Shown here piece after piece: positions 1,143-15,901 of a stretch of 15,901 bases of DNA (the stretch's first letter is position 1; each line of letters starts with the position of its first letter). The notes under the pieces are model-generated. The model saw only the letters and a program-made list of their open reading frames with translations. It had not been told where the DNA came from and did no database searches. Made by a program: the position numbers and the translations under genes. Source of the stretch: Acidobacteriota bacterium (GTDB lineage Bacteria; Acidobacteriota; Blastocatellia; RBC074); assembly GCA_013140935.1 (NCBI GenBank), contig JABFSD010000864.1:1-15901 (forward strand), given 5' to 3'.

Positions 1143-1202
1143 AGTCTCTGTACCGAGGTTTTGTATTCACCGTATTCACTTTTCACTTTTCACTTTTCAC
1201 TC
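1123..1202. repeat. Inverted heptamer tandem repeats forming a 21-bp hairpin
   Basis: Three copies of AAGTGAA (1123-1143) face four copies of TTCACTT (1175-1202, last copy ending in C). Positions 1123-1143 and 1175-1195 are perfectly complementary over 21 bp with a 31-nt loop; the fourth right-hand copy allows the pairing to slip by 7. The left arm contains the cupin stop codon (1140-1142), and the right arm ends 3 nt before the TPR-protein ATG (1206). There is no U-run after the stem, so a classical intrinsic terminator is not supported. Attenuation, mRNA stabilisation or masking of the downstream start are possible. Confidence 0.85.
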
Positions 1203-1205
1203 TCA

Positions 1206-4200
1206 ATGCAACTCTCAGCGAAAGACATTCAACCTATTCTCGATTTATACGAACGCGGCTTTTATTTGCAGGCGCACGCTGCCGCCTTACAACTCGCACC
1301 TTTGAAAGACTGGCAGGGAACTGACGCGAAGGTTTTAGCGGGGCGTATGTGTTACGCGTTGGGTGCGGCGCGCCAAGCGCAACGATTGCATTACAGCGCG
1401 TGGCGGCACGACAAGCTGCACGCCGAAGCGCGCTATTTTTACGCACGCGCTTTGAGTGATCGTTCGGGCGTATTGCGCGCGTGGTGGTTTTTGCAATCCA
1501 TCGGTGAAGAGTTGCCGAACGCGACGCCGAATGTGCAGGCCGATTGGTACGGTTTGCACGCGCAGACGCTCGGCAACCTGCGCGACTTTGATCGCGCCGA
1601 AGCCGCGCTGGCGAAAGCCGAAGCCTGCGCACCCACCGACCCTTACGTCTGGGTCGAACGCGCGGGCTTGCTTGAAATGGAAGACCGTTACGATGAAGCG
1701 TTGCAAGCCGCCGAACACGCGCTCTTGGTGCGTCCGTGGTATCGCCCCGCGATTCAAACCGCCGCGCACTTGCTGGTGTTGCTCGAACGCGAACAAGAGG
1801 CGTTGCAATTGTTGAAGGAAGCCATTACGCGCATCGAGAGCGGTTCCATCGCGGGCCAGTTGGCGCAATTGCAAAGCGATCTTGAGTTGTATCAAGAGGC
1901 GCGTGCCAACTGGGAACTCTTCGCCGAACGCATGCCGTTGCTCGACGAAGACGATCAGCCCTGGCTCAACGCGCGGCGTTCCGATGCGGCTTATTACTGC
2001 GGCGATTACGAAGCGGCGCTGGCCTTTGCCGAAAAGGCGCGCGGTTTCTTTTTCAAGCGCGTGGCCGAAAACCTGCGTGCGGCTCAGTCGAATGGAAACA
2101 ACGCGCAACGCCTTGCGCTGCCAGTCAATTTCATTCGTCAGCATCACATGACGTGCGCCCCGGCTACGCTCTCGATGATTAGCCGTTACTGGCAAAAGTC
2201 CGTAGAACATCTGGGCGTCGCCGAACAGATTTGTTACGGCGGCACGACCGATTACAGCGAACGCAAGTGGGCGATGGAGCAGGGCTATGTCACGCGCGAG
2301 TTTTGCGTGAACCGCGACGATGCGGTGAAACTTATCGAACGCGGCGTGCCTTTCACACTGGCGACGGTTGATCCGGGCAACGCACACTTGCAAGCCGTGA
2401 GCGGATATGACGCGCGACGCGGTACGTTGTTGTTGCGCGACCCTTACGTCAGCAGCCTCGGCGAAGCCCTCGCCGACGAACTCGTCAAACATTATCGTTC
2501 GAGCGGCCCGCGCGGCATGGCGCTCGTGCCCTTAGATCAAGCCGACAAACTCGCCGACTTGGAATTGATGGACGCGGCGCTTTACGACCACGTATACCAA
2601 ATTCAAGACGCCCTCGACCGCCACGACCGCGAATCCGCGATGACGGTCTGGCAAACGCTGCAAGGCGCGCATCCCGAACATCGCCTCACGCACTGGTCGC
2701 GTTTGATCATTGCGTGGTACGACGACGACAACACGCAAATCCTCGCCAGCGTAGAAAAGCTGCTCGAACAATTTCCCGAAGACGCCAATCTCAAGATGAG
2801 CAAAATTTTCGCGTTGCGTACTTTATCGCGCAGCGAAGAGCGATTGGCTTATCTGGCTGAACTCTGCGCGTGGCATCAGCGCGGTGAACCAACGGCTGAT
2901 AACGACGCTGCGGTGGATGGCGATAAACCAGCGGCTGATAACGGGACTCTTGATAATGCTGTCAATCGTTCTTCTCAAGGCGTTGATGAGGATGATGCAA
3001 AACAACTCCCATCAGTCCCATCAGTCCCATCAGTCCCATTATCTGACGACAATGATCCTGACCAAGAGCTAACCGAAAAAGAAAAGAAAGACTCGCGCCG
3101 TTATTTCGATCCGCTGTTTTGGCAGCAATACGCCGAAGAACTCAGCACCGACGCGCGTATGCACGGCAAAGCTCTGCGTCTCTTGCAACGCACGCTGCGC
3201 TATCGTTCGCAAGACGCGCACAGCATCAGCATTCTGGCGAACATCCTCTGGGCGCAGCGCCGCTTTGAGATTGCTACCGAACTCTATCGCTTTGCCGCGT
3301 GTTTGAAAGACACGAGCGAACATTACGTCCAGGCTTATTTCATCGCGGCGCGTTATTTGGGACAGCGGCAAAGCGCGTTGCAACATTTAGAAAGTCGTTT
3401 CAAAAGGTTCGGCAAACGTAGCGGCGCTCCGGCGCGCACGCTGTCGAGTGCGTTGGAACAAGTCGGTGACGACGTACGCGCCTTAGCCGTGCTCGACGAG
3501 GCCTTAGCGTCGCGGCCTGAAGACGGCGAGTTGTGGCTTTACGCATCGGACGCGCAAGCGCGCAACGGTAATTTCGACAAAGCCGAACAGTATGCCGCGC
3601 AAGCCGAAGGCAAAGCGCCGCGCACGGCGTGTTTGCGCGGCAAGGCTTTGATCGCTTTTTATCGCGGCGCGCTCACCGAAGCCCTGCAACACTGGCGCGA
3701 AGTACTCGAAGCCGAGCCGCAAGCGATTGACGCTACGCGCAACGTCTCGCGCCTGATCGCCGAGACCGAAGGCCGTGAGGTTTCGCATGCGTTTTTGCGC
3801 GAACGCTGCGAATGCTTTCCGCACAACTATCCGCTCAACCAATTGCTGGTCGAAGCCTTGCGCGAAGACCCCGCCGCCGCCGAGCAAGCCTTGCGCCGCT
3901 TGATCGAGATTGATCCGAACGAGTCTTGGGGGCGGCGCGAGTTGGCTTACAAGCTGATCGAGTTGCAACGTTACGACGAAGCCCAAGCAGAAGCCGAAAC
4001 CGCCCGCCAACTCGAACCGCAAAACCCTTTCAGTTTTTGCACGCTCGGCGCAGTGCAAGCCGCGCGCGGCGACGTCGCGGAAGCGCGCGAATCATTCAAA
4101 GAAGCCATACGTTTGTCTGCCGATACCGAATTCGCCATCGGTGAATTGATGAATCATTCGCACACGCCCGCTGAAAAACTCGATGCCTTGAACCTGCTCG

Positions 4201-6488
4201 CCGCTGAGTTGGAAAAGCAGGTCACGTTCGGCGAAGGCGTGCTGGCTTATCGGGAATATGCAAAAGCCTCGTTGCCGATGGAGGAAGTGCAGGCGTTTTT
4301 GCAACGCGCCCTCGACGCACGCCCCGACCTGCCCTTGGTGTGGACGGCGATGATTCAACAATTGGTGGATATGCAAAGCCTCGACGAGGCGTTGCGCGTG
4401 GGCGAAGAAGCTACGCAACGCTTTCCGTTGCTGCCGCGTTTGTGGCTCGATCTGGCTTCGGTGCAACAAGTGCGCCTCAACGTAGCGGGCGAAATCACGG
4501 CGTTGCAACAAGCCCTGCGCATCGCGCCGAAATGGGGCTTCGCCGCCCAACAACTGGCGGACGCTTATTTGCGCGCCGGCGAAAAACAAAAGGCCATAGA
4601 AATTTTAGAGCGCGCCATCGCCTTGACGCCGCTCGATCCTTACAACCACGGCTGCCTCGCCGACGTGTTGTGGAAGCTCAACGAAAAAGACGCGGCGCTC
4701 GCCCGCATTCAACCGGCGCTCAAGCTCGAACCTGAATATGAATGGGGCTGGCGCGCGCTGCGCGATTGGGCGGCAGACCGCAAGCAGCCTGAGCTGGCTA
4801 CGGAATTGGCACGCGAAGTTACGCAACAACGTCCGGGGCAGGCGCTCGCGTGGCTCACGCTCGCGCGTACCATCACCGATGCACGCAAGCTGGACGAACG
4901 CCTTGCTGCCATAGATCGCGCGCTCGTTTTGCAACCCCGCATGATCGAAGCCTACGCCTTGAAAGCGCGCCTTTTCACCGAAGCCCATCGCTTCGACGAA
5001 GCGCGCGCTGCGTGCCGTCCGGCGGTATTCGGTGAAAACGTTCCTGCCGGTTTGCGCATTGTCGCCGCCAACGTCGAAGCCGAGCGCGGCGCGGTGAACG
5101 ACGCCGTCAAACTCCTGCGCGAAATCGTGACCGACGAGCCGAACTTTTATCCCGCCTGGGCGCAACTCGCCGACTGGTATCGTGCCAACAAAGATCACGG
5201 CTATTACCGCGAAGCCGCCGAAGCGATGGCGCGCTTGCAGCCGCACTATCCGATTGCGCTCGGCTATCTCGCCGAAGCCCGCCAACTCACGCTCGACCGC
5301 GCGGGCGCAAAAGAAGCGTTACAACGCGCGCTGCAACTCGACCCGATGTATGAATACGGCGCGATCACGCTGTTTGATTGGCAGTATGAAGACAAGGAAT
5401 GGGACGATTGCGAAACCACCGTCGCCCATCTCAAACAATATCTGGGCGGCGATGAAACTTACCTCCGCGAACTCAAGCTCGCGTTGCATAACGAGGACTT
5501 TCAGACCGCGCGGCAACGCTTGCAGGAACTGTGCGTTTCAGAAAGCGAAGAGCGCCACGCGCTTGATCAGGCGCTGAGCGCCGCGACGATGGCCGGCGTA
5601 GATACGCCGCAAGCGGAACGTTGGAAGACGGAAGCCGATTCAGTATTGGATTACGTGGTTGACGCGCGCTTGGCGAATGCCAACGCCGTCGCTGCGTGGG
5701 TTGAACGCAATGCGAAACGCGAGCAATACGACAAAGTGCAACAATGGCTCGATGCTTTGCCCGAACGCGACGAGTTGTGGCGGCGCGGTTCCATTGTGTT
5801 TCTCGAAACTCTGGTGACGGCGCACAAAAAACATCGGATGCGCACTTACGTCACGCATCATCAAGAAGCCCTACGCGCGCACGACTGGTCGTGGGGCAAC
5901 GTAGGCTTTTTCTATCTCGACATGAAAGAACCGCGCTCTGCCATCGCGTGGCTCAACGATTGGCGCGAACGTGCGGAACTCGAACCGTGGATGTTGTGGA
6001 ATCTCGTACTCGCGCTGCATCAACGCCAACAACTCGCACCGGCTTATGAAGTCAGCGAACACGCGCTCACGCTGCCGCCCGATTCGACGAGCGACGCGCA
6101 TACGTTGCTGTTAGCCGTCGAAGATTTCCTGCGTGACCATTACGACCTCGGCAGTAAGCGGCTCGAACACGTCAACGTCAACGCGCTGCGCGAATGGGAC
6201 AAGTTCGTTTATGAACTGGCTTCGTGTTTGCAGGACGCCGACCACGCGCGCATCGAACAATACAACGGGCACCGCATCTCGCACCAAACCATCCTGCAAC
6301 GCATCGCTGAGGCGCGCCGTGTCACGGCAGATGCGCGCATGAGCAACGTATTGGTTCCGCTGCATCGGCGCGTGGTTTGGCATATCGCGCGGCGCAGCGG
6401 GAATCCGTTGTTGATGATGTGGGTGGGATTGCAATTAATGGGGCAGGCGGCCTGGCGTTCGGTGTTTGGGGATACGGAAGGAGCCTAA
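1206..6488 (+). CDS. Giant TPR protein with internal C39-like cysteine peptidase domain
   Basis: This 1760-residue protein is built mostly of helical pairs with TPR signatures (for example RYDEALQAAEHALLVRPWYRP, AEQYAAQAEGKAP, KAIEILERAIALTPLDPY). A papain-like C39-type domain is embedded at about residues 300-460: Q312 and C317 in RQHHMTCAPATLSMI, H394 in GNAHLQAVSGYD and D412 in LLLRDPY give the Gln-Cys-His-Asp set expected for activity. A low-complexity acidic linker at about 560-628 separates it from a second long TPR block. No signal peptide or membrane segment is seen. The frame is also open from a TTG at 1161, but that extension is just translated heptamer repeat, so ATG 1206 is preferred; no Shine-Dalgarno precedes it. 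C39 domains usually cleave leader peptides at double-glycine sites; here no transporter or precursor is nearby, so the substrate is unknown. Scaffold with protease function is an inference. Confidence 0.85.
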   Translation: MQLSAKDIQPILDLYERGFYLQAHAAALQLAPLKDWQGTDAKVLAGRMCYALGAARQAQRLHYSAWRHDKLHAEARYFYARALSDRSGVLRAWWFLQSIGEELPNATPNVQADWYGLHAQTLGNLRDFDRAEAALAKAEACAPTDPYVWVERAGLLEMEDRYDEALQAAEHALLVRPWYRPAIQTAAHLLVLLEREQEALQLLKEAITRIESGSIAGQLAQLQSDLELYQEARANWELFAERMPLLDEDDQPWLNARRSDAAYYCGDYEAALAFAEKARGFFFKRVAENLRAAQSNGNNAQRLALPVNFIRQHHMTCAPATLSMISRYWQKSVEHLGVAEQICYGGTTDYSERKWAMEQGYVTREFCVNRDDAVKLIERGVPFTLATVDPGNAHLQAVSGYDARRGTLLLRDPYVSSLGEALADELVKHYRSSGPRGMALVPLDQADKLADLELMDAALYDHVYQIQDALDRHDRESAMTVWQTLQGAHPEHRLTHWSRLIIAWYDDDNTQILASVEKLLEQFPEDANLKMSKIFALRTLSRSEERLAYLAELCAWHQRGEPTADNDAAVDGDKPAADNGTLDNAVNRSSQGVDEDDAKQLPSVPSVPSVPLSDDNDPDQELTEKEKKDSRRYFDPLFWQQYAEELSTDARMHGKALRLLQRTLRYRSQDAHSISILANILWAQRRFEIATELYRFAACLKDTSEHYVQAYFIAARYLGQRQSALQHLESRFKRFGKRSGAPARTLSSALEQVGDDVRALAVLDEALASRPEDGELWLYASDAQARNGNFDKAEQYAAQAEGKAPRTACLRGKALIAFYRGALTEALQHWREVLEAEPQAIDATRNVSRLIAETEGREVSHAFLRERCECFPHNYPLNQLLVEALREDPAAAEQALRRLIEIDPNESWGRRELAYKLIELQRYDEAQAEAETARQLEPQNPFSFCTLGAVQAARGDVAEARESFKEAIRLSADTEFAIGELMNHSHTPAEKLDALNLLAAELEKQVTFGEGVLAYREYAKASLPMEEVQAFLQRALDARPDLPLVWTAMIQQLVDMQSLDEALRVGEEATQRFPLLPRLWLDLASVQQVRLNVAGEITALQQALRIAPKWGFAAQQLADAYLRAGEKQKAIEILERAIALTPLDPYNHGCLADVLWKLNEKDAALARIQPALKLEPEYEWGWRALRDWAADRKQPELATELAREVTQQRPGQALAWLTLARTITDARKLDERLAAIDRALVLQPRMIEAYALKARLFTEAHRFDEARAACRPAVFGENVPAGLRIVAANVEAERGAVNDAVKLLREIVTDEPNFYPAWAQLADWYRANKDHGYYREAAEAMARLQPHYPIALGYLAEARQLTLDRAGAKEALQRALQLDPMYEYGAITLFDWQYEDKEWDDCETTVAHLKQYLGGDETYLRELKLALHNEDFQTARQRLQELCVSESEERHALDQALSAATMAGVDTPQAERWKTEADSVLDYVVDARLANANAVAAWVERNAKREQYDKVQQWLDALPERDELWRRGSIVFLETLVTAHKKHRMRTYVTHHQEALRAHDWSWGNVGFFYLDMKEPRSAIAWLNDWRERAELEPWMLWNLVLALHQRQQLAPAYEVSEHALTLPPDSTSDAHTLLLAVEDFLRDHYDLGSKRLEHVNVNALREWDKFVYELASCLQDADHARIEQYNGHRISHQTILQRIAEARRVTADARMSNVLVPLHRRVVWHIARRSGNPLLMMWVGLQLMGQAAWRSVFGDTEGA
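2887..2943. repeat. 18-bp imperfect direct repeat in TPR gene linker
   Basis: Positions 2887-2904 and 2926-2943 are identical except for one base and are offset by 39 bp, hence in frame; they encode PTADN and PAADN. They lie in the low-complexity linker, a stretch whose composition differs from the flanking TPR coding sequence. This looks like local expansion of an inserted linker. Confidence 0.7.
3007..3039. repeat. 9-bp in-frame tandem repeat (TCCCATCAG), about 3.7 copies
   Basis: The unit TCCCATCAG occurs at 3007-3015, 3016-3024 and 3025-3033, and partially at 3034-3039. It is a multiple of three and encodes a Ser-Val-Pro triplet repeated (SVPSVPSVP) within the acidic linker, so copy-number change would alter linker length without frameshift. 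This marks a candidate variable-number locus. Confidence 0.85.
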
Positions 6489-6799: not shown

Positions 6800-7498
6800 A
6801 TGGCATTTGTGTTTACGAAAAAAATCGACCCGCGAAGTGCGCGAACGAAAGCCCCCAGTGATTTCACCGAGCGCAAAGCTAAAATCATTCCAATCACTTC
6901 GCGTGGCAAAGCGCAAAGAATCACTCCGCTAATCGGTGGGCGACCGCGGGTGGGCCAGCGGCTTTACGCCGAATTTATCAATCGTTTCGCTCAATTTGTA
7001 GTGATGTCGGTTTTCGTCGTGCCTCTGTGGATGACGGGCGGCTCAACTTATCTGCTCACTGCTGGACTGGGCAGTATTCTGCTTTGGCAATTTTGTTGCG
7101 ACGGCGCACCCGAAAAGCCCAGCCTGGGCAAGCGGTTCGCTTTATTGCGAGTCGTATCGCTGACTGGTGAACCTGCCACCTTAATGCAAAAAATCTTGCG
7201 CCGCAGTGGCACTGCGCTTTCGCAATTCTGTTATGCCTTGTGCCTGACGTTGAGCTTGCCGCAATGCGTCGTACAAACACAGGCCGCAGGGTTGGCTGAC
7301 GGGCTGTTCGCACCTTTGCGTTGGTTGGATTACACGCCGCAACCCGTAGCGCAGTTAATGCTATTAGGGTTGTTGATAGATGCAGTTGGGCTGTTGTGTA
7401 TCTCGTTTTCACCGCAAGGCCGCAGCCTTGGCGATTTTTTTGCGGGCACGCGTGTCGTCACCAAAAAGTCATACCAGGCATGGAAAGCTACCACATAG
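6800..7498 (+). CDS. RDD family membrane protein
   Basis: This 232-residue protein has a basic soluble N-terminus (about residues 1-50) followed by an RDD-type domain. Family hallmarks seen: RLYAEFINRF (54-63), in the place of the Arg-x(3)-Asp pattern, opening a first membrane helix (about 64-77) and a second (about 83-97); the cytoplasmic loop KPSLGKRFALLRVVSLTGEP (106-125) typical of RDD proteins; a hydrophobic segment at 141-157; another at 184-203; and the terminal RSLGDFFAGTRVV (208-220). The signature Asp of the first helix is replaced (Ile-Asn-Arg instead of Ile-Asp). RDD proteins are inner-membrane proteins, some linked to Na+/H+ exchange, most without known function. The gene has a very strong ribosome binding site and is followed 37 bp later by the dead-RT gene on the same strand, so the two are probably co-transcribed. 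Confidence 0.82.
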   Translation: MAFVFTKKIDPRSARTKAPSDFTERKAKIIPITSRGKAQRITPLIGGRPRVGQRLYAEFINRFAQFVVMSVFVVPLWMTGGSTYLLTAGLGSILLWQFCCDGAPEKPSLGKRFALLRVVSLTGEPATLMQKILRRSGTALSQFCYALCLTLSLPQCVVQTQAAGLADGLFAPLRWLDYTPQPVAQLMLLGLLIDAVGLLCISFSPQGRSLGDFFAGTRVVTKKSYQAWKATT

Positions 7499-7535
7499 GT
7501 TTAACAAATCGGATTGCACTATTTGTGAGGCGAAT

Positions 7536-8687
7536 ATGACCTATCTCCCTTCTCAATTGATGTTCAAAACAGAAAACCTGCTAAAGGCCTGGCCGCAAGT
7601 ATGCGCTCAATTGCCAGACTTGCCGTTGATCGCCCAAGCCATCGCCTCGTACGAGGACGATTTGAGAGGCAATTTGCATGCGTTGCGCACACGACTATTG
7701 CGCGGCACTTATCATCCGGCCAGACAAGGCGCATCTATTACTGCTTTGCTGGAGGATTTCGTCGTACAGCGTGCGGTAGGCAACGTACTGGAGGTGTTAT
7801 TGACAGCCAGCCCCCCCGGCGCGGTGTCCAGCCGTCAAGCCGCCATCGAACGTTTGCAACAAGCGCAGGCTCGTGGTTTCCGGGGCGTAATTCTCAGCGA
7901 GTTACCCGGCTATCCTCACCAACTCAACTGCGAGTTATTATTGCAACGAATCGCCACGCAATTCGCTGACGAACCTTTGCTGGCGTTGCTCACGCTCTGG
8001 TGCGAAACGGGGGCGTTGTTCGGCGAACCGCCCGAAGTTCACCACGAAACGACCGGGCACATCCATCAACTTACCCGCGCCTGGCTGACAAACTTCTTGC
8101 AAACTGGGCGCTGGACTATGGGGCAACCAGCGGATCTAAATGATGAACAGTTTGTTGCACAGGTGATGGCATCATTCACCACCACGCGCACCAGCGAAAC
8201 CTCAAGGGAGGAACTGAGGCGTGCGGCTTGGAACCGATTGGTGCGTGCGGCGGCAGCCACCGGAGCGGCCTTGCTCGTGTTGTACGCCGCTTCGCGGTGG
8301 TTGCGCCGTCGCACCTGGCCCGGCTCGCTGACGGCTTTGAGCGCCGTGGCTGGTCTATTGGGCGCATACGTCTTGCGGCAGCCCCAAACAAGCCCGGTTA
8401 CGACTGGTATTCCTTTGGTGCTGGAAACACAAAAGCGGCTCGAAACCTTGCTGGCTGACTTGCTCGTGCGCGATTTTGATTTGGCGCTCACCCAGGCCGG
8501 GTGGCCCCTGGTGAGAATCGGCGGAAGCTTTGCCATTCCGGTAAGTAACGCGCAAAGCGCCCAGGCTGCCTTGCAGTTGGCACAACAGGTCTTGGGGCGA
8601 ATGGGCGAAGAGCTTGAATCTGATAGAACCAGTCTGGTGCGTTTCGAGGATGCGCAGGAACTCATCAGCAATCATTGGGTTGTGTAG
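7536..8687 (+). CDS. Catalytically dead reverse transcriptase with inserted membrane segment
   Basis: This 383-residue protein follows the layout of group II intron/RT-Cas1-type reverse transcriptases while losing every catalytic feature. Fingers: YEDDLRGNLHALRTRLLRGT (39-58), then LLEDFVVQRAVGNVLE (71-86), with the usual IPK...R-P-L strand pair missing. Palm A: ILSELPGYPHQLNCELLLQR (119-138), where E122 sits at the first catalytic Asp and H128 at the second aromatic-Asp position; FADEPLLALLTLWC follows as in RTs. The PQG turn reads GIPLV (291-295) before LLADLLVRDFDLALTQAG. The YADD box reads RIGGSF (327-332), followed by a thumb-side GEELESDRTSLVRF (357-370). Between palm A and the PQG position lies an extra segment with two likely membrane helices (about 238-252 and 264-280). 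GAGG precedes ATG 7536; the frame is open further upstream but would overlap the RDD gene. An intact, well-placed ORF argues for exaptation rather than decay. The molecular role is unknown. Confidence 0.72.
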   Translation: MTYLPSQLMFKTENLLKAWPQVCAQLPDLPLIAQAIASYEDDLRGNLHALRTRLLRGTYHPARQGASITALLEDFVVQRAVGNVLEVLLTASPPGAVSSRQAAIERLQQAQARGFRGVILSELPGYPHQLNCELLLQRIATQFADEPLLALLTLWCETGALFGEPPEVHHETTGHIHQLTRAWLTNFLQTGRWTMGQPADLNDEQFVAQVMASFTTTRTSETSREELRRAAWNRLVRAAAATGAALLVLYAASRWLRRRTWPGSLTALSAVAGLLGAYVLRQPQTSPVTTGIPLVLETQKRLETLLADLLVRDFDLALTQAGWPLVRIGGSFAIPVSNAQSAQAALQLAQQVLGRMGEELESDRTSLVRFEDAQELISNHWVV

Positions 8688-8692
8688 GCATA

Positions 8693-9952
8693 TCACTCGG
8701 CTATGATTTCGAGGGAGTAGCGCTGTTCGTCATACAGATGCCTGGCAAGTGCTTTGCCGTCTCGTCTTGTCGCGGCATGATTACTAACAACTAAAATCAA
8801 ATGGCTTACTTCCTCCAAAGCAGTCAATTCCATTCCTTCGCACAAAACCAGTGAGTTCTCTTGAGCAGAAGCCGCCGTCTTTGGCATTAGCTTCTTTTGT
8901 TCTCCTTTAATTACTCCATTTTTTACCTTGACTAACTGTGCCCGCAGCGGCGTCTCGCCGGACAAATCAGGTTTCAATCGAACGGTAATTTTGCGAACGC
9001 CGTCCAACGGAACAATCTTGTAATAACGACAGGCAAGATGATCCAGCGTGTCGCTTGCTACTTGCGGTTCTTCACTGGCGCTGACATTGAAGGTAAATGC
9101 AATCGCCCGTTCCCCGAATCTTTTATGTAGGTTTTCATCGAAACAGCAGCTATTCGGGTCGGCTAGAAAATAAGCGTCGAGGCAATAAGAGGCAAAAATA
9201 TCATTGTCGTCGTGCTCGCCAGATAAAAAATTATACCCGGCAGGCAAGGTTTTTCTGATTACTTCAAAAGGGTCTTTACTGGTGCTGGCATTACACCAAA
9301 CTTTATCAACGAACCCTTCGTGAAATAGTTTATCCAGGTATTTAATAAACATTACAGCTCGGTAAGGAGCCATGGGAAATGCCAAAGGGTCTTCATCTAA
9401 GGGAGCTTCCGGTTGGCAAATCCAGCTTCTCAGATAGCGGTAATAATCATGCGACTGCCTGACCAGCCGCGATTCCATGTAGACGGCTGTTCCCTCGTCA
9501 ATCCACGCCCACGATTGGTACTGAGAGTAATCTAAATTGGCAGGGTAATAACTGGAAATAATGGCATGAAACCCTTCGTGAATGGCCGTGATTCGGGCAT
9601 TGAGTAATTCAGCTTTGAGATCGGGCTCGCCTGTTCCGCTGGGCAGCAAAATATAAATATCATTGTCCTCTTGATACATACCGGGCGGATAGAAATCAGC
9701 AACGAAAACTCTAACCTTCAAAGGCACGGGGTTGAATGGGTGTTTCTTCCACGGCAAAGTTGTCATTGCGTGCTGAACGTTATTCAGCCCTTTAATGTAA
9801 GCGCGTATCAAGGCTTCGTCGGCAATGCCATCCAAACCCACTCCCTCGCCCTTCGCAGGGTTACGAAATGCATATCGGATCGCAAACAAGCCAGCGGCTT
9901 TCGGCGGGTTTAGCTTATCTACCTTTTTTTGTATTTTAGGATCAATGGGCAT
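8693..9952 (-). CDS. Cytoplasmic HExxH zinc metallopeptidase (gluzincin-like)
   Basis: This 419-residue protein carries the zinc-peptidase motif HEGFH (H125, E126, H129) in ITAIHEGFHAIISSYYP, and 24 residues after H129 the segment WIDEGTAVYMES, where E153 is the likely third zinc ligand. This fits clan MA gluzincins. The N-terminal part (1-110) includes a strand-rich VRVFVADFYPPG lead-in; the C-terminal part (about 300-419) looks beta-rich (ITVRLKPDLSGETPLRAQLV, HLILVVSNH) and resembles accessory domains attached to such peptidases. No signal peptide or membrane helix is seen, so it should act inside the cell. It is the last gene of a minus-strand operon, 17 bp after the receiver gene, with GGGG 8 nt before the ATG. 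Association with a two-component relay suggests a regulated protease; the substrate is unknown. It ends 5 bp from the stop of the convergent dead-RT gene. Confidence 0.78.
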   Translation of the reverse strand: MPIDPKIQKKVDKLNPPKAAGLFAIRYAFRNPAKGEGVGLDGIADEALIRAYIKGLNNVQHAMTTLPWKKHPFNPVPLKVRVFVADFYPPGMYQEDNDIYILLPSGTGEPDLKAELLNARITAIHEGFHAIISSYYPANLDYSQYQSWAWIDEGTAVYMESRLVRQSHDYYRYLRSWICQPEAPLDEDPLAFPMAPYRAVMFIKYLDKLFHEGFVDKVWCNASTSKDPFEVIRKTLPAGYNFLSGEHDDNDIFASYCLDAYFLADPNSCCFDENLHKRFGERAIAFTFNVSASEEPQVASDTLDHLACRYYKIVPLDGVRKITVRLKPDLSGETPLRAQLVKVKNGVIKGEQKKLMPKTAASAQENSLVLCEGMELTALEEVSHLILVVSNHAATRRDGKALARHLYDEQRYSLEIIAE

Positions 9953-9969: not shown

Positions 9970-10683
9970 TTATTGATCTTCGCGGAAAAGGCGAATCTTG
10001 ATGGGATCGGAGCTATCGTCTACCTGATAGATATTCCGAACTTTTTGTTGCACCGAGGCGTCTATGTCACGCCAGTGTTCGACAATATCCCGTCGAAGTA
10101 AGGCCAGCCGATGTGTGACACTCTCCCCTCGCCCCCCATCTTTTTTCATAGAGTTTCTTGATGAGCTAAAAATTGGATCGTAGTGACTGCCGAATACCTC
10201 ATTGAGCTGTTCTTCAATGCGTCCACCGTAAAGAAACTGTTTAATCTGCTTAATCAGTTGCAGCAATTCGTCAGGGTTAAGTTTGGATAGGAAAAAAGCG
10301 TTTCGGTCGTTTTGTCTACTATGGATTTTTTCTTTGTGTTCTTGTATCTGTGGATTTTTTGGGAATGAAGTGATGTGGGCAATAAGCGTCCAGGGGAAAA
10401 ATCTCCTGATGTATTCGCACAATGTTGTGTCCACTGCCGGGATTTCTTCTTCTGGAGTTGTGCTTGTTACCACATTCTCTACCTCTTTTTTACGTGGCAG
10501 GTTAAAGTCCAGAATGACTACATGGTAAGGAGCTTCTTTCTGGAAAGCAGCTTCTAGCAACCCGCGCGCTTTTGTGACGGATTTTGCTTTATCAATCATT
10601 GCCTCCGGGATGGCCTGTAGTAGTAAGTTTTCGATTTCGATGAGGGTATCTTCTACGTCTTCCACTGCGAGAATTCTGAACAT
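9970..10683 (-). CDS. Response regulator, receiver domain with uncharacterised C-terminus
   Basis: The 237-residue protein begins with a receiver domain: acidic pocket E8-D9 in ILAVEDVEDT, phospho-acceptor D59 in HVVILDFNLPRK, T105/S106 in LIAHITSFP and K134 in AFFLSKLNP. All switch residues are present. The loop after D59 is expanded by roughly 20 polar residues (about 64-85), unusual for this fold. The C-terminal about 90 residues contain a Ser/Gly-rich stretch and a helical end with THRLALLRRDIVEHW; no helix-turn-helix, GGDEF, EAL or other output domain is recognised. The start follows AAAGGAAACT, which overlaps the kinase stop codon, so translation is probably coupled to the kinase gene (9 bp apart). 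It is the expected phospho-partner of that kinase. Confidence 0.85.
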   Translation of the reverse strand: MFRILAVEDVEDTLIEIENLLLQAIPEAMIDKAKSVTKARGLLEAAFQKEAPYHVVILDFNLPRKKEVENVVTSTTPEEEIPAVDTTLCEYIRRFFPWTLIAHITSFPKNPQIQEHKEKIHSRQNDRNAFFLSKLNPDELLQLIKQIKQFLYGGRIEEQLNEVFGSHYDPIFSSSRNSMKKDGGRGESVTHRLALLRRDIVEHWRDIDASVQQKVRNIYQVDDSSDPIKIRLFREDQ

Positions 10684-10692
10684 AGTTTCCTT

Positions 10693-13600
10693 TCATTGTT
10701 TTTGAGTAGGTGAAAAAGGCAGTTCAATAACGAACTTTACGCCTTCGCCAGGAACGCCTTTTTCCTTAATACTGCCACGGTGTGCTTTGATGACCCTTTG
10801 CGCGTAATTCAACCCTAAGCCTAAACCCTCTTGGCGACCGGGACGATAGCTATAGAATCTTTCAAAGATTTTTTCATTCGACCCGAATGGGATTCCAGGT
10901 CCATTGTCTTCATAGACTATCTCGACCTTCTCTGATTGGCTCTGGCCATTGATCGTAACAACAACCTGCAAAGGTTTTTCGACAGAAGCAAAGATTTGTG
11001 AGTTATGAATGATTTCCAGCAATGCCATCTCAATGTAGTGTGCATCCGCGTCAATAATTATCGAAGTGCTATTTGCTCTAAGTTGCGTCACTTCACTGGG
11101 TAAAGCCACATCCAAGGTTGTCTTTATCAGGCTTACTAGTTCAACAGGCGCAAGAACAGGGTTAATTACTGATAGCATTTCTTTGGCCCGTAATACCGTA
11201 GTTTCGACATTTTTCATCAGCACTGAAAAACGGTCATTGACTTCTTTTAGCTCCGAAAACTTTTCCTCATAGAGTCGATAACGGGTTAGTAAGAAGCCCA
11301 GCGAACTGAAACGTGTGGCGATGTTGTGCGCCATGTCAGCCATGTTTCTCTCTGCCGCTTCAACCCTGATGCTGTCTTTTAGTTGATTGTTCAAACTGTC
11401 GCGCTTACGAGTAGCATCAAGTTGATCGGCGGTGATCGAAGATAAAACCTTAAGCATCTCAAAAGTTTCCTGGCGTAGGTTCTCATCGCATTGAAGGGCG
11501 ATCTTCCCGAGAGGTTCATCGTGAGCTAGCAGCGGCAAATCAAGCCAGAAATCTCCGGGTAGCTTATCGGTTAAATGAGGGTGCTTGACAGTTCGATAGG
11601 GAAGGCCCCAGCGATTTTTTTTCTCGCTCCCGTCGGGCAGTTCAGGGTTGAAACAGAACACAACGGGCTCTTTTTTTTTCAGACAAAGCCAGGAATGTTT
11701 GTCTTTCCCTTTAGCAGGCAATTGCCGCATCTCGATGTTGAATTGTTTCTCTGCCTCGGCATCGTTAATGTTATAACAAAGTTTCCCCACTAACGTATCC
11801 GGGACTTTTTCATCAATTAGCCAGAGACGCCCCCATTTGTGTCCCAGCAATTTGGTAGCTTCCAAGCTGGCTTCTTCTGCTGATTCTAAATCCTGCGCGG
11901 CGGCTATCTTCTGAAATGCTGCGAGTACTTTGAAAAAGAAATTAAGATCTTGAATATGAGCCCAAGCCCCCGCTTTTTTTTCCTTCCAAAGTGGATGGCC
12001 TTTTCGCCAATCAGGAATGCAATCTGCCAACCATGAACCTTTGTATATTTTATGCGTGATCATTTCACTCAAATAACTGTTGCGATTTCCTTTAAGGGCT
12101 TGTTGAACAAAACTGATGACCTTTTCATCCTGTAACGTATCAATTGATTCCGCGTTTTTGTAATCGCGCCAACCAGGTTTGATGCCGAATAATCTAGCGG
12201 CTGGAAGATTGAGATACTGAAGTTTTGCTTCGGGGTTGACGATCATGATTGGCTCAGGAGTCTCATCCAAAGTGGATTCCAACAAGGTAACTCTTTCGCT
12301 CTTCTCGATAGCGATAGCTAATTGCCTGCCGAAATCTGTTAACTCGCGTGCTTCACCGGGAGAAAGAACTTCTGTGCGGTCATGGCGTTCAACATGGATT
12401 GTGCCAATCGGTTCGTCGTGGCGATCCAGAATCGGAATGACTGCAATTGCGCACATCTTGACGTAGGCAACGGTCGCCTTGTCGGTAAATAGGTCAGTAC
12501 GAGCATTTTCCACAATCCGATATTGTTTATAGTAAGTAACGAGTTGCTGAATATCCCATTGGTCACGCTCCGGTTTTATGCCTTCCCGAATTAGTGGCCA
12601 GGAGCTTCGTTGAGAAATATCCGTCTCTGAGTCATCGAATACTCCCTTGATTCTCTGTTCGCTTCGGTCTATCAGAGAAAACATAACCCGTCCGAAACCC
12701 ATCTCATGCAATCTGCGCGAGGCCACCGCCATAATTTGGCGAACATCTAGAATGTTTCTGCCTAACTCGTTGAGGATGTCGTTAGCAATCTTGAAATACT
12801 GATTACGCCGCTCCAACCTTTTTCGGTCGCGGCTGACTCTGACGGCGTGGTCGTGGGCGGACACGAAATGTTGGATCAGTTCTTTTGCCAGATATTCGCG
12901 TTCAGGCGAGATCACCGTTTTTTTGTCAAAGTCGCCGATGACGACTAGGTCCAAGTGATCTGAGCGAATGCTTTCCAGCATGGCTGCCATGGCATACGAA
13001 CTGATGGGCTGAGGAAGTGGAAGAAAACCTGTTGGAGGCGGGGCGGAAGGAGAAACTGTGTCATTGACCAGTTGCTCCAACACCGGAGTTGGGGAACCAC
13101 CAATTGGTTGAAACACTTTTCCTCTTTCACTGCGCCAAAACGATATCTCAGCGAAACCCAACACCAAGCGGCAGCCTTTGCTGAAGAGGTCGTTTACCTC
13201 TTCGACAATTTCAGCAGGAGCTTTTCCATCATCCGTTCCGCGCGAAGCCGTGCTGTAAAATGAGGAAGAAAGCGCCCGGAGCGCGGCTTCCACCTCCATT
13301 CGATCGTCTATATCCGTAGGCCGAAGCCGATTTTCAGCGGGAATTTTTTCATACAGGGCGAAGGCTTCGTCCCAGCGACGTTGCCTGGCTGCCAGATCAG
13401 CCCAATGAAGCTCATTAAAATGGTGCTTGACCAGCGTTTTTATCCAGGGAGAGGCGAACTTTAAGATACTGCCTTCGCGGATTGCCACGCCGGCTAACTC
13501 CAAAGTCGAAGGCAGTGCATTGGCGGCAGGTAACTTGTATTCGCCATCGCGAATAAGATACCGAAGCGTTCCCCAGCAATCAGGTTCTCTCGCGATTAAT

Positions 13601-14421
13601 TGATTGGCGTGACGAAAAGATTGAGTCCAATAGGCCCCTACCACGGCGTTGTTGTCGGGCAATTCGTAGTAATCATCAACCTTGACCTTTTCTTCTTTGG
13701 TAATTCTTTTTCTGGCGCGATGCTCTACGACGGAACTGAAAAAGTGCCTGAGTAGGTAAATATTCCCGCCCGACCATTGCCATAATTTGTGAATGGCTTC
13801 TTCCCTGTAGTCAAAGTCAAGTTGAAGAGTAGTAGCAAATCGCTCAAAGAAGAGTTGGAAGGCCGATTCGTCATAACCTTGTAACACGATTTGGTTCGCG
13901 CACCGAAAGGGCGAATTGGGACCATTAACCAGATCGCGGAAATCATATTCTCCGCTAAGAACGACGACCAGCTTTTTTTTCTCGACCCGGGATTGGATGT
14001 TTTCGAGAAAATGTCGAGCCAGATGTTGCGGAATAGAATCTACGTTACTAACGAGTAGAATGATTGGTTTATCTGTTCGTAAGTAAAGGTCATCCAACAG
14101 AGGGAAGGCTTCCGTTGGAGTGAATAAGGAGGGATTCGAAGCGGTCGCTGCTATGTCACCCTCTGGCATCGCTTGTTCGATTTCCCGCAGCATCACGTTG
14201 TTCAATTCGGCGGCGTTACTGACTTGGCTTTTGCCGCTAAACCTGAGAAGGATGACGTTTGAACGATCCTCCTCCTTCAATCGGTCGCAAAGCTGAATGA
14301 TCGTTGCTCTTTTCCCTCCGAAACGTGGCCCTAAAAGTACTACGCTTTCACCGCAGTCTATTTTTTGGATTATTGCGTTGATTAGGTTTTCGCCAATTTG
14401 CCTGTAAGTAAATTCGATCAT
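10693..14421 (-). CDS. Hybrid sensor: degenerate AAA domain, GAF/PAS regions, histidine kinase
   Basis: This is a 1242-residue protein. Residues 1-240 form an AAA/STAND-like NTPase domain with altered P-loop GPRFGGKR (31-38; Arg instead of Ser/Thr) and altered Walker B ILLVSNVDSI (121-130; the Asp-Glu pair replaced by Ser-Asn). A winged-helix-like and helical linker follows (240-390). GAF-like regions are at about 385-525 and 545-705 (ending IPILDRHDEPIGTIHVERHD, typical of GAF). A PAS-like segment starts at LDETPEPIMIVNPEAKLQYL (718-737). A third GAF-like region lies at 830-1000. The DHp helix has H1032 in MADMAHNIATRFSSLG. The HATPase shows N1140 (N box), D1172 in EDNGPGIP, F1186 and GLGLGL (1199-1204). 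No membrane helix is seen, so it is a soluble sensor. It follows the ATPase gene by 40 bp and precedes its likely partner receiver by 9 bp. Several A8/A9 tracts occur in the coding strand. Confidence 0.85.
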   Translation of the reverse strand: MIEFTYRQIGENLINAIIQKIDCGESVVLLGPRFGGKRATIIQLCDRLKEEDRSNVILLRFSGKSQVSNAAELNNVMLREIEQAMPEGDIAATASNPSLFTPTEAFPLLDDLYLRTDKPIILLVSNVDSIPQHLARHFLENIQSRVEKKKLVVVLSGEYDFRDLVNGPNSPFRCANQIVLQGYDESAFQLFFERFATTLQLDFDYREEAIHKLWQWSGGNIYLLRHFFSSVVEHRARKRITKEEKVKVDDYYELPDNNAVVGAYWTQSFRHANQLIAREPDCWGTLRYLIRDGEYKLPAANALPSTLELAGVAIREGSILKFASPWIKTLVKHHFNELHWADLAARQRRWDEAFALYEKIPAENRLRPTDIDDRMEVEAALRALSSSFYSTASRGTDDGKAPAEIVEEVNDLFSKGCRLVLGFAEISFWRSERGKVFQPIGGSPTPVLEQLVNDTVSPSAPPPTGFLPLPQPISSYAMAAMLESIRSDHLDLVVIGDFDKKTVISPEREYLAKELIQHFVSAHDHAVRVSRDRKRLERRNQYFKIANDILNELGRNILDVRQIMAVASRRLHEMGFGRVMFSLIDRSEQRIKGVFDDSETDISQRSSWPLIREGIKPERDQWDIQQLVTYYKQYRIVENARTDLFTDKATVAYVKMCAIAVIPILDRHDEPIGTIHVERHDRTEVLSPGEARELTDFGRQLAIAIEKSERVTLLESTLDETPEPIMIVNPEAKLQYLNLPAARLFGIKPGWRDYKNAESIDTLQDEKVISFVQQALKGNRNSYLSEMITHKIYKGSWLADCIPDWRKGHPLWKEKKAGAWAHIQDLNFFFKVLAAFQKIAAAQDLESAEEASLEATKLLGHKWGRLWLIDEKVPDTLVGKLCYNINDAEAEKQFNIEMRQLPAKGKDKHSWLCLKKKEPVVFCFNPELPDGSEKKNRWGLPYRTVKHPHLTDKLPGDFWLDLPLLAHDEPLGKIALQCDENLRQETFEMLKVLSSITADQLDATRKRDSLNNQLKDSIRVEAAERNMADMAHNIATRFSSLGFLLTRYRLYEEKFSELKEVNDRFSVLMKNVETTVLRAKEMLSVINPVLAPVELVSLIKTTLDVALPSEVTQLRANSTSIIIDADAHYIEMALLEIIHNSQIFASVEKPLQVVVTINGQSQSEKVEIVYEDNGPGIPFGSNEKIFERFYSYRPGRQEGLGLGLNYAQRVIKAHRGSIKEKGVPGEGVKFVIELPFSPTQKQ

Positions 14422-14461: not shown

Positions 14462-15901
14462 TCAACGACATTGAGCAATGGTTTCTTCCAACGCACTATC
14501 AATAAACCCCATTTCGTGCGCGTAAAAGGTGATCGCGTCGTTCGCTATACGATATCCATCGTCCCAGATCAAAATATTGTTAATAATCAGGTCGTTACAG
14601 ATTTCATGAGCTTGCTCAAAACTTAAATTTATTCCGTGTTGACGCGCTAACCCTTGGACCAGGCCAAATTCGATGCGGCGAATACGGCCTTTCAGCAGTG
14701 CGAGTGCCACCAAACGGGCACGCGGATTTTTTAGTTCAATAATGGGGGCCGTACAAAAATTCGCTGTGAGGTCATCTGCTTTGAGAGTTTCTATGTGTAA
14801 TGGAGAAATTGAATCCGCTTCTTCCTCGTCTGCTAATTCTGCCAACCGTTTCGCATGAAACTGTAATAGGTGAGGCATTCTTCCGGTTAGTTCAAAGAGC
14901 AATTCAACTAGTTTTTCTTCGTGTTCAACTTTGAAGCCGATGTCTTTGAGTGGCGTAAGAACCAACTTGCGCGCGGAGGTTGCATCGAGCGGTTTTAGTC
15001 GAAGCAACTCTAATCGGTATTTAAGTGGTGAATTGCCGTAAAGCATCGTTTTCAGCAGTACCTCACGCCCGCATAAAATGAGTCGGCATAATCCTTGATG
15101 TGCGGCAATGGCAAGTTCCTGGAACGGCTCGGTTTGGCATACCTCGTCTACCTCATCGAGAATAAGTTCCAGTGGACGCTCGGCCACGGTGCGCTGAACT
15201 TTGAGAAAATGCGATAACTCCGCAAACTTGAGGGAGGCGCTCCGGCTGGAATTATCAATTCTCAACGCAATAAATTGTGCAATGCCGTCAGGCGTCTTGT
15301 TCGTGCAATCGCGAAAATCAAAATAATACCGGCAAGCGTTTCGGGGATCGAGCTTTTGCCGGATTCTAAATTCATGTTGTTTGACGAGAGAGGTTTTTCC
15401 CAAGCGGCTGGGCCCGGCGATGGCGAAACTTGCGGTGTCTTCATTGAAGAGTCGGCTTAATTCTCTTTCTCTGCCGAAAAACATATTGTTGCTGGCGGGT
15501 AACAATATGTTGAAAGGCTGTACGGACATGCGGCCCAGTTGATTTCGCAAAAGCAGAGAGAACAGTTTTTCGGGAGCAGGTGATTCCAGCAACTCCGCGA
15601 GTTGTGCCGAGGAAAACCGCAGAGAGCGGGTGTGTCCGATAGCCTGTTGTGCGAGGGCGAGCGAGGTTTCTGACAATGCCCAGACCATTACCAGGCGTTC
15701 AGGCGCATTCACCGTGCGCCAGAATTTTTTTAGGTCGTCGGCCAGGGCGGGGTTATCGCCGCTGACGAGCAGGCAATGAATATTATCAGCGCCACGCAAT
15801 TTGAGTTCGTTGAGTTGCATCTCAAACCGCAGCGCATCCGTACCGATTTTCCCGATGGAGCCTTCGGCTTTGAGATGTTTTTTCAGATGCTGTACCAGTT
15901 C
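14462..15901 (-). CDS. AAA/STAND-type ATPase, N-terminus beyond window
   Basis: The frame is open from the right edge to a TGA at 14462-14464 (479 residues visible). The first ATG is at 15818-15820, but 27 further codons in frame upstream (reading ELVQHLKKHLKAEG and on) look like protein, so the gene most likely starts outside the window. Numbering from that ATG: an unrecognised alpha/beta N-terminal domain (about 1-95), the linker NMFFGRERELSRLF (112-125) that typically precedes STAND/AAA P-loops, Walker A GPSRLGKT (136-143), Walker B LELILDEVDE (217-226), a sensor-like LILCGRE, then a GRMPHLLQFHAKRL lid region and a C-terminal winged-helix-like part (about 375-440). Both Walker motifs are intact, unlike the related domain in the kinase next door. 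It heads the visible minus-strand operon. It probably serves as an NTP-dependent switch; the signal and partner are unknown. Confidence 0.78.
   Translation of the reverse strand, partial: ELVQHLKKHLKAEGSIGKIGTDALRFEMQLNELKLRGADNIHCLLVSGDNPALADDLKKFWRTVNAPERLVMVWALSETSLALAQQAIGHTRSLRFSSAQLAELLESPAPEKLFSLLLRNQLGRMSVQPFNILLPASNNMFFGRERELSRLFNEDTASFAIAGPSRLGKTSLVKQHEFRIRQKLDPRNACRYYFDFRDCTNKTPDGIAQFIALRIDNSSRSASLKFAELSHFLKVQRTVAERPLELILDEVDEVCQTEPFQELAIAAHQGLCRLILCGREVLLKTMLYGNSPLKYRLELLRLKPLDATSARKLVLTPLKDIGFKVEHEEKLVELLFELTGRMPHLLQFHAKRLAELADEEEADSISPLHIETLKADDLTANFCTAPIIELKNPRARLVALALLKGRIRRIEFGLVQGLARQHGINLSFEQAHEICNDLIINNILIWDDGYRIANDAITFYAHEMGFIDSALEETIAQCR

Follow-up and report, generated by a model that had tools for sequence, protein, structure and literature searches.

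The question raised by this locus is why an acidobacterial genome should keep an intact gene for a protein which resembles a reverse transcriptase (RT) and in which the catalytic aspartates have been replaced. Hardly any dead RTs with new tasks have been described from bacteria; among bacterial intron-encoded proteins, a 2015 review names, in the passage concerned, a single one known to have lost its RT motifs (PMC4424553). The gene lies in the window, i.e. the whole stretch of 15,901 nucleotides analysed here (contig JABFSD010000864.1), the features of which are collected in Table 1. That the protein combines RT ancestry with loss of catalysis we hold with high confidence. The most telling facts about it, namely a CRISPR origin, an RDD-family partner, an adjoining signalling cluster and a second dead copy, are found outside the coordinates covered by the preliminary description of this DNA.

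Table 1. Features of the window around the pseudo-RT gene
Feature	Position	Strand	Evidence
RDD-family membrane protein gene, 232 aa, partner of the dead RT	6800..7498	+	Pfam RDD, 30.7 bits (cut-off 24.1)
GAGG, Shine-Dalgarno-like, ahead of the RT start	7527..7530	+	sequence reading
Pseudo-reverse transcriptase, 383 aa	7536..8687	+	profiles, model, fold match, alignment
Codon of E122, column of the motif A catalytic Asp	7899..7901	+	alignment A4
Predicted hydrophobic helical hairpin, residues 221-281, inside the motif A-PQG insert	8196..8378	+	model, hydropathy, insert length
RIGGSF replacing the (R)YxDD(W/F) box	8514..8531	+	alignment A4
Metalloprotease-like protein, convergent with the RT gene	8693..9952	-	NF045524, 72.8 bits (below cut-off 140); homologue in G001:C87
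Response-regulator-like protein	9970..10683	-	weak: Pfam Response_reg, E 0.053 (below cut-off); homologue in G001:C87
Histidine kinase, 1242 aa, PAS/GAF-like parts, P-loop-like N-terminus (by eye)	10693..14421	-	HATPase_c, E 8.8e-15
STAND-type ATPase	14462..15820	-	nSTAND1, 34.2 bits (cut-off 27.1)

RT ancestry and loss of the catalytic residues

On the evidence of its sequence, the window protein is an RT by descent but not an RT enzyme, the catalytic Asp triad being replaced. It matches the RT profile of PADLOC (E 5e-13) and no RT profile of Pfam, and its predicted model finds the RT fold in a fold search, so that the RT ancestry proposed in the preliminary description is supported. The reading that the protein is not an RT at all is ruled out by the same profiles and fold. 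None of the PADLOC profiles for DRT, Abi or retron RTs matches the window RT, RT and Cas1_IIIb being the only two with a match at E<=1; the intact relative P0003 matches several DRT models weakly.

In an alignment (A4) of three dead proteins with 83 others (79 of the best 120 of 493 matches, the omissions from these 120 being mainly near-duplicates, plus four loci), E122, G330 and S331 of the window RT occupy the three catalytic Asp positions. All 83 relatives keep the motif A Asp, the first Asp of YxDD, the Gln and Gly of PQG, the fingers Lys and the motif D Lys, and 82 of them the second YxDD Asp, in a set which leans towards intact proteins because it was found through similarity to such proteins. 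The exception, P0065, belongs to the insert type and reads YADN instead of YADD, its other checked sites being intact. The dead three carry Glu, Ala and Glu at motif A, Gly, Gly and Asn at the first and Ser, Ser and Gln at the second Asp of YxDD, and have none of the conserved PQG, fingers and motif D residues; they share a Pro in the motif A Phe column (3/3 versus 0/83 relatives). The fingers beta-hairpin is absent from the model of the dead protein and present in that of intact P0003 (strands 67-72 and 78-83). The loss of catalytic residues first read from the window is therefore confirmed by the alignment; the stronger wording, that all metal-binding residues are gone, goes slightly too far for the window copy with its Glu, the copy in the congeneric genome G001 having Ala at motif A.

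Descent from CRISPR-associated RTs

The RTs associated with type III CRISPR systems are treated in parts of Silas 2017 (PMC5513706), Toro 2017 (PMC5541045) and Toro 2018 (PMC6013744). The closest intact relatives of the window protein are RTs of Acidobacteriota, such as P0003 (HYR56_33485), and G001 carries both a dead copy (contig C87) and an intact insert-type RT within a CRISPR locus (contig C42). Pfam Cas1 adjoins the RT at four loci (L017, L019, L020 and L021), PADLOC recognises type III-D genes at L016 (Csm3/Cas7_IIId, Csx1) and L018 (Cas7_IIId, Cas10d), and CRISPR-type repeat arrays occur at L017 (8 copies) and, in the part searched, at L019 (84 copies), with none in the 20 kb of L016; cas2 was recognised at the CRISPR loci by eye only. 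Neither cas genes nor arrays turned up at any of the three dead loci, and the genome of the window (G000, an assembly 74% complete) gave no match to Cas1.

The stretch between motif A and PQG points to the same descent. Its length is 166-220 residues in 74/74 aligned insert-type relatives versus 53 in nine group II-type outgroup RTs, and its 19-residue hydropathy peaks are 1.21-2.21 versus 0.27-1.13; in the window RT the two modelled helices (residues 221-258 and 264-281) have peaks of 1.59 and 1.48, which are only moderate. The insert, which had been taken for a new RT architecture, is thus conserved in homologues and inherited from intact CRISPR-associated RTs, and its occurrence in all 74 non-outgroup relatives rules out that the hairpin is an invention of the dead protein. 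From the hydropathy and the modelled hairpin, we infer that the pseudo-RT may be inserted in the membrane. A hydrophobic insert of about 120 residues between motif A and PQG is found throughout a clade of cas1-linked RTs (e.g. L008:320-1762, minus strand), and its conservation there hints at spacer acquisition at the membrane. One such insert-type RT, in G153 (L029:1202-2712, plus strand), stands beside a cas1-like gene and has its start in a different frame from the remainder.

A tree of 45 rows puts the three dead copies inside an Acidobacteriota clade of CRISPR RTs (31 rows, support 99/99), with support of 89/96 for the trio and 100/99 for the window and G001 copies together, and with a warning from the tree program that long branches meet at the trio. 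When the trio is partly omitted, what remains of it still groups with those rows, but its position varies and is weakly supported. Judged by the common insert and by this tree, with its weak support on partial omission, the dead RT is kin to the cas1-linked RTs. A single origin of the trio is suggested by common residues and neighbours, the tree alone not settling it.

Distribution and retention of the dead copies

Searches of 58 related genomes with the window protein gave matches in seven (E<=1e-3). The dead homologue of G001, of the same genus, is 41% identical to the window RT, and a second dead copy lies in the window's own genome (G000:C473); the closest homologue is thus also dead and does not have an intact YADD box, which speaks against a decaying copy. 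The dead set comprises three sequences from two genomes of one genus, all with open frames and with 21-41% mutual identity. Searches of 162 genomes of the class and 396 of the phylum, the latter a selection from a larger group, yielded 35 loci (L025-L059) among the matches with a locus assigned: two of these (L025 and L050) are the dead copies already described, L049 is without an RT frame and the other 32 have an intact box. Phages gave no match and plasmids a single weak one. A protein collection returned the window protein and the second G000 copy and no others, an absence which is weak because each search scored no more than the 7,995 candidates with the most words in common, and the G001 copy was missing among them. 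The 80 loci listed, of 536 from a scan of genome contigs, hold mostly ordinary group II-like RTs, together with one cas1-linked insert-type RT (L060). An intact RT without the insert is encoded in G001:C37.

Between the window and G001 copies (377 codons, 40% amino acid identity), dN is 0.57 and dS 2.89, the latter near saturation, so that their ratio is only rough. The dead RT diverges to a similar degree as its neighbours at the two loci, the RDD (42% identical), STAND (41%) and histidine kinase (36%) proteins, and the former active-site segment (residues 326-345, 13/20 identical) is the most conserved of 11 segments. With open frames and a dN well below dS, the dead RT is, as far as sequences can tell, kept as a gene, and the earlier claim of an intact and retained reading frame holds up. 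Decay to a pseudogene, which the loss of the catalytic residues and fingers hairpin might bring to mind, is highly improbable against three open frames at 21-41% identity, this dN and dS, a divergence like that of the neighbours and a former active site that changes least. A sequencing error is also unlikely, given the dead orthologue in a separate assembly.

The RDD partner

At E<=1e-5, the window RDD has only four matches in the 162 class genomes, all RT-linked: itself, one RDD from each of the other dead loci and, in G001, the RDD gene that precedes the intact CRISPR RT. Pfam RDD gives 19 matches in five genomes, six at these RT loci and 13 elsewhere. An RDD gene is present at 3/3 dead loci and at 4/8 loci of intact insert-type RTs (in G001, G007, G036 and G019), and was not seen on the examined stretches of G013, G017, G153 and L060. 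A profile built from seven RDDs found none at the 80 loci listed from the contig scan, a comparison in which only the misses inform, because the profile was made from those same seven proteins. The ancestral link between RDD and CRISPR is not new here, since a figure legend on associations of adaptation modules already holds both RDD and RVT (Altae-Tran 2023, PMC10910872).

Zinc-ribbon RDD proteins occur at one dead locus (L014:942-1844, plus strand) and at one CRISPR locus (L019:12283-13032, minus strand). Upstream of the RDD gene, two CRISPR loci share a conserved protein (L016:2956-4758 and L017:5537-7198, both minus strand; 35% identical over 585 residues) with hydrophobic stretches, a second half that looks vWA-like by eye and no Pfam match.

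The neighbouring signalling cluster

Homologues of the STAND ATPase and the histidine kinase adjoin 3/3 dead loci. A sigma factor and a protein of about 210 aa accompany them at G000:C473 and in G001, the window contig ending short of this region; the response-regulator-like and metalloprotease-like genes are seen in the window and G001, and a TIR gene in G001. The RDD-RT pair converges on the cluster in the window and in G001; at G000:C473 the two genes precede the sigma gene and share its strand. Both the STAND and the kinase genes have further homologues on two contigs, G094:C118 (5.2 kb) and G317:C196 (9.4 kb), where the core of sigma factor, ~210 aa protein, STAND and kinase occurs without the pair; the core therefore does not need the pair, which seems to have joined an existing cluster. 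A weaker STAND match is found in G042 (27%). In G317 (L181:1-9259, minus strand), the core adjoins genes resembling, by eye, a primase and an AlpA-type regulator, a hint that the setting may be a mobile or defence one.

Possible role of the pseudo-RT

Considering these observations together, the explanation we favour would start from the RDD-RT pair of a CRISPR adaptation module (RDD, insert-type RT and cas1) in acidobacteria bearing type III-D systems. Through duplication or relocation, the pair would have become separated from cas1 and the array; the RT would then have lost its polymerase chemistry and fingers beta-hairpin while retaining its fold and hydrophobic hairpin, and the RDD gene would have remained its neighbour when the pair came to lie beside the signalling cluster. 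There, the hairpin may hold the dead RT at the membrane together with the RDD protein, possibly in contact with it, and the pair might relay a signal to the STAND and kinase proteins as a scaffold or sensor subunit without catalytic activity. The membrane tethering and the RNA or protein binding put forward in the preliminary description are likewise putative. For this explanation as a whole, we put the chances slightly above even, and for the scaffold or sensor role taken by itself somewhat below. More tentative again is the reading of a Prp8-like event in a bacterium, in which a STAND/histidine-kinase pathway, possibly immune, recruited the spacer-acquisition RT and RDD protein of a CRISPR module as a receptor or scaffold held at the membrane and devoid of enzymatic activity.

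Other roles for the same protein can be weighed against the same evidence. A sensor in which RNA or DNA binding without chemistry switches the signalling cluster would suit the retention of the RT fold and the precedent of dead RTs that work on RNA, among them Prp8 and degenerate intron maturases (as described in parts of the literature cited below), but the fingers Lys, PQG, motif D Lys and fingers beta-hairpin are all lost, and we consider such a sensor unlikely. We find it harder still to credit that the dead RT works in trans in CRISPR adaptation, where, without catalysis of its own, it would assist or restrain an intact RT-Cas1 complex encoded elsewhere in the genome: dead and intact RTs do share their fold and RDD partner, and G001 has one of each, yet the dead loci show neither cas genes nor arrays, G000 has no Cas1 match at its 74% completeness, and its two differing dead copies would both need such a role. 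Insertion of the pair near the STAND/kinase cluster by accident, with an unrelated membrane role, would agree with the convergent orientation at 2/3 loci and with cores that are without the pair on two contigs; linkage at 3/3 dead loci in two differing arrangements makes this, too, a rather improbable account.

Comparison with known systems

Prp8 is not known to have RT activity. Its RT-like domain and the degenerate group II intron proteins, in the passages of Zimmerly and Semper 2015 (PMC4424553) that treat them, keep an RT fold for a non-polymerase task, as the dead RT does; they act on introns or in the spliceosome, whereas the dead RT is a stand-alone bacterial protein with CRISPR-RT descent and a hydrophobic insert. 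The G2L4 RT (PDB 9d4s; PMC12337344) differs in being, by the parts of that source concerned, an active enzyme in DNA repair. With type III CRISPR-associated RTs, the dead RT has in common its fold, sequence kinship, the hydrophobic insert of the cas1-linked clade and an RDD neighbour, but it is without catalytic residues, cas1 and array, and adjoins a signalling cluster.

Among titles and abstract openings of the open-access literature, no report of an exapted dead CRISPR RT was found, in a search that was not exhaustive, because the combination of RDD, CRISPR, cas1 and RT missed PMC10910872, whose legend has RDD and RVT. Word finds in PMC5541045, PMC6013744, PMC5513706, PMC8934634, PMC12669027, PMC9048733 and PMC8730458 gave nothing on a dead CRISPR RT in the passages they led to, and the legend and section 14 passages of Altae-Tran 2023 (PMC10910872) contain neither a dead RT nor an RDD-RT pair away from CRISPR. 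The present case suggests that part of an immune-memory machine has been recycled as a non-enzymatic component and, if this is true, a polymerase fold would serve only as a signalling part. Intact CRISPR relatives that carry the insert and the partner gene allow its descent to be traced, so that the use of an RT fold which has no chemistry can here be addressed directly.

Other features of the loci

An Rfam scan of the window gave no RNA family. Upstream of the RDD-RT pair, the window encodes a 1775-aa TPR protein with a Peptidase_C39_2 domain (1161-6488, plus strand), which has no match at E<=1e-5 around the dead loci L014 and L015 or in L151. A further RT of the same genome (L013:268-2352, minus strand; 695 aa) keeps YVDD and has a long C-terminal extension.
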